DNA of 35,703 nucleotides, taken from the NCBI GenBank assembly GCA_017857175.1, contig JAFMDS010000019.1:1-35703 (forward strand). The letters are read 5' to 3'. Source of the DNA: Candidatus Nanopelagicales bacterium. Lineage in GTDB: Bacteria; Actinomycetota; Actinomycetes; S36-B12. A program made the position numbers and the translations under genes. Shown here piece by piece: positions 1 to 463 of this stretch (within the stretch, counting starts at the first letter, position 1; each line of letters starts with the position of its first letter). The notes beneath the pieces are model-generated. The model had not been told where the DNA came from. It was given only the letters and a program-made list of their open reading frames with translations, and did no database searches.

Positions 1-194
1 CCTGGGTCCTGGGGCGCGGGACCACCGAGTTCGGCACGCAAGTCTTCATTATTTGCAACGCTTATGGCTGGGCGATCACGAAGACTAAGAATGTGATCGA
101 TGGTTAGATCAACAACCTGATGACCCAGTGCACGCATCTGCTCAGGGTCAAAACTTAAGTCGAAGCTAATGGAGTCCTCCGAGTTTTCACTCAT
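1..194 (-). CDS. PLP-dependent amino acid decarboxylase, N-terminal part (cut by window edge)
   Basis: Reading leftward from the ATG at 192-194, about 64 codons are open to the window edge. The N-terminus contains DPEQMRALGHQVVDL followed by TIDHILSLRDRP, the entry helix typical of group II pyridoxal-phosphate decarboxylases (aromatic amino acid, glutamate or tyrosine decarboxylase-like). The PLP lysine and the substrate-determining part lie outside the window, so the substrate cannot be named. A TAGTCT box ends six bases before the ATG, and no Shine-Dalgarno sequence is seen, which suggests a leaderless transcript. Assignment to the family is an inference from this short conserved segment. 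Confidence 0.75.
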   Translation of the reverse strand, partial: MSENSEDSISFDLSFDPEQMRALGHQVVDLTIDHILSLRDRPAISVANNEDLRAELGGPAPQDP

Positions 195-208: not shown

Positions 209-225
209 GGCTGAGGAGATCAGCC
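209..225 (-). repeat. Short inverted repeat over the stop codon of the Cys-rich gene
   Basis: Perfect 6-bp arms, GGCTGA and TCAGCC, flank a 5-base loop. The repeat covers the stop codon of the 57-residue gene and sits in the -35/-10 spacer of the decarboxylase promoter. On the minus strand only a few scattered T residues follow, so it would be a weak terminator at best. It could equally be an operator. Confidence 0.35.
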
Positions 226-393
226 ACCAAAGAGTCGTGAGAAGAACCCACCCTTATTTGCAGCTGCTTTCTCGGCAGCGGTGCAGGAGCAGCGCTGGTT
301 CTTGGGAATTCCACGGAGAACTTCGTTCTTGTGTTGACCACAGCCGGCCCAGGTTGCCTTCTTGCACGCTTTACATGTTGTTTGACGGCACAT
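220..393 (-). CDS. Small Cys-rich putative metal-binding protein (57 aa)
   Basis: The ATG at 391-393 has a good ribosome binding site (AAGGA, six bases upstream) and the frame ends at TGA 220-222. The protein begins MCRQTTCKACKKATWAGCGQH and has Cys at positions 2, 7, 10, 18, 35 and 37 plus His21, an arrangement suited to binding Zn or Cu. Small proteins with the pattern MCRxxxCxxCxKxTWAGCGxH are, from memory, widespread in Actinobacteria and usually annotated as hypothetical. The C-terminus (GGFFSRLFGG) is a short amphipathic tail. The start lies about 50 bases downstream of a CsoR-like palindrome, which suggests metal or persulfide control. The metal and function are inferred, not shown. 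Confidence 0.8.
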   Translation of the reverse strand: MCRQTTCKACKKATWAGCGQHKNEVLRGIPKNQRCSCTAAEKAAANKGGFFSRLFGG

Positions 394-444
394 GGTTGAT
401 CCTTAGGTCGAGGGAATGGAAACCCACTCTTCAGTGGTGAGTGG

Positions 445-463
445 ACTATACCCCAGGGGGTAT
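445..463 (-). promoter_or_regulatory. CsoR-like operator overlapping a -10 box
   Basis: ATACCCC-AG-GGGGTAT at 448-463 is a perfect palindrome with 7-bp arms. A-T flanked C-tract/G-tract dyads of this kind are typical operators of CsoR-family repressors (Cu(I), Ni/Co or persulfide sensors). On the minus strand TATAGT (445-450) overlaps its edge and would serve as the -10 box for the 57-residue Cys-rich gene, so a bound repressor would block the promoter. No CsoR-family gene is in the window. The identification rests on the motif alone. Confidence 0.55.

Follow-up and report, generated by a model that had tools for sequence, protein, structure and literature searches.

A gene for a 57-residue cysteine-rich protein near the start of the window (the whole stretch of 35,703 nucleotides analysed here, which is contig C49 of a 2.0-Mb genome in 83 contigs) appears, with a probability that we place at about 0.78, to be a member of a persulfide (sulfane-sulfur) response regulon governed by the CstR branch of the CsoR family, and its product most likely contributes, in a way so far overlooked, to the handling of excess reactive sulfur. 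The persulfide branch was favoured over copper because of the eight-base (N8) spacing of the operator, the lack of the copper-site histidine in adjacent regulators, the sulfur genes found near the small gene, and the targets of N8 sites in its own genome. A conserved and mostly unannotated family, present in most of the sampled genomes of the order and at hundreds of other actinobacterial loci, would in this way be placed in a defined stress response, which makes the small protein directly testable.

A small cysteine-rich gene and its family

The ORF starts with an ATG at position 393 of the minus strand, its last sense codon ends at 223 and the stop codon occupies 220-222 (Table 1). The translation, MCRQTTCKACKKATWAGCGQHKNEVLRGIPKNQRCSCTAAEKAAANKGGFFSRLFGG, contains six cysteines (positions 2, 7, 10, 18, 35, and 37) in addition to His21. 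Homologues were found in 119 of 146 relatives of the same order and the ORF is under purifying selection, with a median dN/dS of about 0.22 over 271 pairs and changes located mostly at codon position 3; judged from these comparisons, the gene is real. It stands alone in the window, and the CstR-type regulator gene csoR2 lies on a different contig. About 26 bp downstream lies a decarboxylase-like gene (3-194, minus strand) that is truncated by the end of the contig and does not recur as a neighbour at homologue loci. Besides, a short hairpin whose T tail is weak (424-437, minus strand) was noted in the 5' leader between the operator and the start codon, where about 0.6 such structures are expected by chance.

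Table 1. Features of the small gene and its upstream region (window coordinates)
Feature	Position	Strand	Basis
57-residue cysteine-rich protein, long form of the family	220..393	-	ORF read from sequence
Long-form core C2-C7-C10-C18-H21-C35-C37 with basic/aromatic tail GGFFSRLFGG	220..393	-	
Probable ribosome-binding site TAAGGAT, a few nucleotides 5' of the ATG	399..405	-	read directly from sequence
-10-like TATAGT overlapping the gene-proximal operator arm	445..450	-	sequence; TATANT conserved in 90 aligned homologue promoters
Operator dyad ATACCCC-AG-GGGGTAT (TAC-N8-GTA, CstR/ScCsoR spacing)	448..463	.	sequence, conservation, and spacing classes

Scanning a genome contig collection with a profile built from the closer homologue set returned at least 551 stretches matching the family, whose members range from 37 to 70 residues and share the core C2, C7, C10, G17-C18-G-x-H21, and C35, followed by C37 or by G-H. 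Among 243 domains, the C-terminal part of the core was C-x-C in 175 and C-x-G-H in 68. Part of this counting used a strict pattern that required the core residues, and a profile search without any residue requirement recovered the same core, the differences being the GH swap, a single C-x-G-Q-H copy, and a few hits that were fragments or in wrong frames. Longer forms usually carry a tail such as FFSRLFG, while the short form stops after RCTCR. A second paralogue in this genome is a 38-residue protein (contig C42, 25818-25986), which has its own N8 operator and is closely followed by a mycoredoxin/glutaredoxin-like gene. Relatives commonly carry short forms, and in some cases these are arranged divergently to the long form, with operators that are shared or paired.

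The AlphaFold2 model of the small protein (mean pLDDT 83) has two short strands plus a helix at the C terminus, and a Foldseek search of the PDB found no fold matching it (best E 3.4). Profile searches of Pfam (58 members), NCBIfam, and the PDB gave no match to the small protein above the curated cut-off, metallothionein families of Pfam and NCBIfam included, and a literature search on its sequence motifs returned nothing relevant. The exchange of C-x-C for C-x-G-H suggests a metal ligand within a metal-thiolate site, and the small protein itself is therefore likely to bind metal, although probably not as a copper-response peptide.

These same properties bear on an alternative that we regard as somewhat unlikely, in which the protein is part of the same persulfide regulon yet carries no sulfur, acting instead as a zinc-binding adaptor whose structural site tethers or modulates a partner such as the dioxygenase, thioredoxin, or the repressor. 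The swap seen in 68 of the domains is typical of a metal ligand, the small fold is predicted with fair confidence, and the conserved basic-aromatic tail, restricted to the long form, could be read in the same way. However, seven ligand-type residues exceed the need of one tetrahedral zinc site, which leaves spare thiols, and no partner was identified.

The operator and its spacing

The original prediction had described a six-cysteine ORF preceded by a perfect palindrome overlapping a TATAGT box, and each of these elements was confirmed (223-393 on the minus strand, 448-463, and 450-445 on the minus strand, respectively). The dyad, ATACCCCAGGGGGTAT, was the only match in the window when up to two mismatches were allowed, while shuffled sequences are expected to yield a mean of 0.02. 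TATAGT overlaps the dyad arm nearest the small gene, and a consensus scan detected no full sigma-70 promoter at this box. An alignment of 90 homologue promoters showed the TAT of the gene-proximal arm running into a TATANT-like -10 box, and the overlap of operator and -10 box is accordingly a conserved feature of promoter design.

The DNA around approximately 130 homologues was fetched, and the genes with 60 bp or more of upstream sequence, 136 in number, were scored for ATACCCC-N2/3-GGGGTAT at 12 or more of the 14 positions, with dinucleotide shuffles as the control. The palindrome proved to be conserved upstream of homologues, as the original prediction supposed: it was present at 104 of the 136 genes, usually 30-60 bp before the start codon, compared with 2 of 2720 shuffles, and a clear dyad was absent from the upstream region of the other 32. 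When all gaps from 0 to 11 between the half-sites TACCC and GGGTA were scanned, only gaps of four bases (95 genes, N8) or five bases (5 genes, N9) were found. In the 90 aligned promoters identity reached 96% in the arms and 29% in the flanks, and the two central bases varied. The genes neighbouring the small gene in the window are not conserved at homologue loci, and since the flanking genes differ among these loci, the operator travels with the small gene; conservation of the dyad through synteny was rejected on the same ground.

We consider the probability negligible that the dyad arose by chance or is purely architectural and plays no regulatory part at the small gene. A loose form of the pattern (TACCC-N2-6-GGGTA) is indeed no commoner in this genome than its reversed control (12 versus 14 occurrences), that is, it is not enriched genome-wide, unlike the stringent form, which occurred in 59 of the 81 relatives listed and for which the reversed control gave zero in each of the 81 genomes. 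Conservation of the dyad at homologues without synteny refutes a chance origin.

Regulators and genomic neighbours

Two CsoR-family genes are present in the genome, in agreement with the expectation in the original prediction that a gene of the CsoR/RcnR family would be found. The first (csoR1, contig C4) precedes copZ-copA, has the copper-site histidine (GDHLNHC), and finds its best PDB match in the copper CsoR structures 4adz/4uig. The second (csoR2, contig C45, 4239-4454; CTDVVTQ...ATGMQEC) has two cysteines 29 residues apart and no copper-site histidine, as expected for the regulator of a CstR/ScCsoR regulon, and its best PDB match is 7MQ1/7MQ2, of which 7MQ2 is identified as CstR in the literature, according to a review. 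Where CsoR-family proteins encoded next to the small gene could be clearly read, the copper-site histidine was missing, a few wrong-frame pattern hits having been disregarded in this reading.

Operators of copper CsoR have been described as TAC-N9-GTA (PMC3902906), and the sulfane-sulfur site of ScCsoR from Streptomyces coelicolor as ATACC-N6-GGTAT, which corresponds to N8 (PMC7533328). This division was also seen in the sampled genomes, where copper csoR loci had N9 in 29 of 30 cases and N8 in none, the 8-kb loci around the small gene had N8 in 71 of 80 and N9 in two, and random 8-kb windows scored 0 of 60. Moreover, each of the 15 CstR-type regulators checked has an autoregulatory site of the N8 class. 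The site at 448-463 is a TAC-N8-GTA operator over a promoter, as in CstR/ScCsoR regulons, and does not have the TAC-N9-GTA form of copper regulons of the CsoR/RicR type; a literature search on the RicR operator itself gave no usable spacing. Nevertheless, a single MEME motif in one paper pools the ScCsoR site with those of copper CsoR and RicR, so that the inducer may not be determined by spacing alone, and N8 spacing is best taken as strong, but not sole, evidence for the persulfide branch. As a sequence rule, the split between N8 at CstR-type and N9 at copper-type operators would separate persulfide from copper regulons, and it is useful where both regulators are annotated merely as "metal-sensitive transcriptional regulator."

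Genus g14 apparently provides a natural switch of regulator and operator. Its His-type regulators have N9 at five of five sites; in three genomes (G051, G063, and G068) the small gene has an N9 site and a His-type regulator was the only one found, while in G030 the small gene has N8 and a CstR-type gene is present. Additionally, in four relatives a regulator of the N8 type without the histidine is followed by copA, in some of them with copZ, which may point to crosstalk between copper and sulfur or to an exchange of regulators.

The neighbourhood of the small gene was surveyed at 80 loci from named actinobacteria across Actinomycetota and compared with 60 random 8-kb windows. Genes for CstR (46 of 80 loci), rhodanese (40), persulfide dioxygenase (27), TauE (22), and thioredoxin (14) were found near the small gene and in none of the random windows, whereas CopA occurred at one locus and in one random window. 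At least one of CstR, rhodanese, persulfide dioxygenase, and TauE was encoded within 4 kb at 55 of the 80 loci, mostly on the same strand. An operator or operon shared with rhodanese, persulfide dioxygenase, and TauE genes, as in a CstR/ScCsoR regulon, was thus observed, and linkage to copZ/copA or to a His-type CsoR, the mark of a CsoR/RicR copper regulon, was not the pattern found (copA/copZ at 1 of 80 loci). On plasmids of Curtobacterium, Arthrobacter, and Rhodococcus the small gene, unannotated or labelled "hypothetical," is surrounded by genes of the CsoR family and for MBL, rhodanese, DsrE, and TauE proteins, and a Microbacterium copy follows a CsoR-family gene. The plasmid records matching the family numbered 61, all from actinobacterial genera.

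In the genome under study, N8 sites precede csoR2, a rhodanese gene together with one for an MBL-fold/rhodanese protein resembling persulfide dioxygenase, and a gene for a rhodanese lipoprotein. Two further sites, one flanked by a thioredoxin gene and a divergently oriented DUF3039 gene (contig C45, 9039-9052) and the other before a transporter gene of the SLAC1/TDT family (contig C46, 9275-9288), suggest additional members of the regulon, while a few imperfect intragenic sites look like chance.

The claim that a CsoR-family operator controls a small cysteine-rich protein without an assigned family was supported, and persulfide was among the inducers originally listed. The accompanying suggestion of a metal-buffering or metal-delivery peptide akin to those under RicR was not supported, in view of the N8 spacing, the adjacent regulators without histidine, and the scarcity of copA/copZ. 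A response to copper or another metal, in which the gene would be under a copper sensor of the CsoR/RicR type and its product would buffer Cu(I) as MymT does, appears improbable to us. Some observations are compatible with it, namely the CsoR-family type of the operator, the abundance of cysteine, the copper-type csoR-copZ-copA locus in the genome, the regulators lacking the histidine that precede copA in some relatives, and the three genomes of genus g14 in which the small gene has an N9 site and the regulator found is of the His type. It is disfavoured, however, by the spacing, by neighbours that include rhodanese, persulfide dioxygenase, and TauE at many loci, and by the type of the adjacent regulators, as well as by the lack of a metallothionein match.

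Proposed role and comparison with known systems

In S. coelicolor ScCsoR and Staphylococcus aureus CstR, the two cysteines of the repressor react with persulfide or polysulfide, after which ScCsoR dissociates from the DNA. The CstR-type repressor encoded on contig C45 most probably occupies the N8 dyad across the -10 box, and upon its release production of the small protein would accompany that of rhodanese, MBL-fold persulfide dioxygenase, thioredoxin, the mycoredoxin-like protein, and an anion transporter. The protein may form a metal-thiolate mini-domain, probably with zinc, whose cysteines accept, carry, or buffer sulfane sulfur; this sulfur could be handed to rhodanese or persulfide dioxygenase, or the protein could be reset by thioredoxin or mycoredoxin, and the long form might use its basic-aromatic tail to dock on a membrane or on a partner. 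The role of carrier or buffer, taken by itself, is put forward tentatively and seems less likely than not. With similar reserve, we envisage a possible new kind of metal-thiolate sulfane-sulfur carrier, widespread in Actinomycetota and made on demand in tailed longer and 38-residue forms, that would relay persulfide sulfur between the CstR-regulated rhodanese, dioxygenase, and thioredoxin/mycoredoxin.

Mycobacterial MymT is likewise a small cysteine-rich protein under a CsoR-family repressor, RicR, with copper as the inducer and Cu(I) as the bound metal; by description, the gene studied here differs from it in having N8 spacing and sulfur-gene neighbours. The CstR/cst operon of S. aureus resembles the present system in that csoR2 matches 7MQ1/7MQ2, with two cysteines 29 residues apart, and in its sulfur-detoxification targets, and the portion of the source available to us describes no member of the small family (PMC9774590). 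The sulfur (SUL) module of the Arthrobacter plasmids pA58H2, pA8H1, and pA40H2 contains the small family together with a CsoR-family gene, a sulfur dioxygenase, two rhodaneses, TauE/SafE, and DUF302, and a "small hypothetical protein" is recorded there, for which the accessible text of that study gives no function, motif, operator, or wider distribution (PMC6305408). The ScCsoR (SCO0620) circuit of S. coelicolor consists of the regulator, persulfide dioxygenase, rhodanese, and a sulfite transporter, four genes that do not include a small cysteine-rich protein, and the small gene in the window differs from it in having its own operator away from csoR2; nonetheless, the two systems are alike in the operator (ATACC-N6-GGTAT, N8), the classes of target genes, the two-cysteine CsoR-family regulator, and the actinobacterial host (PMC7533328).
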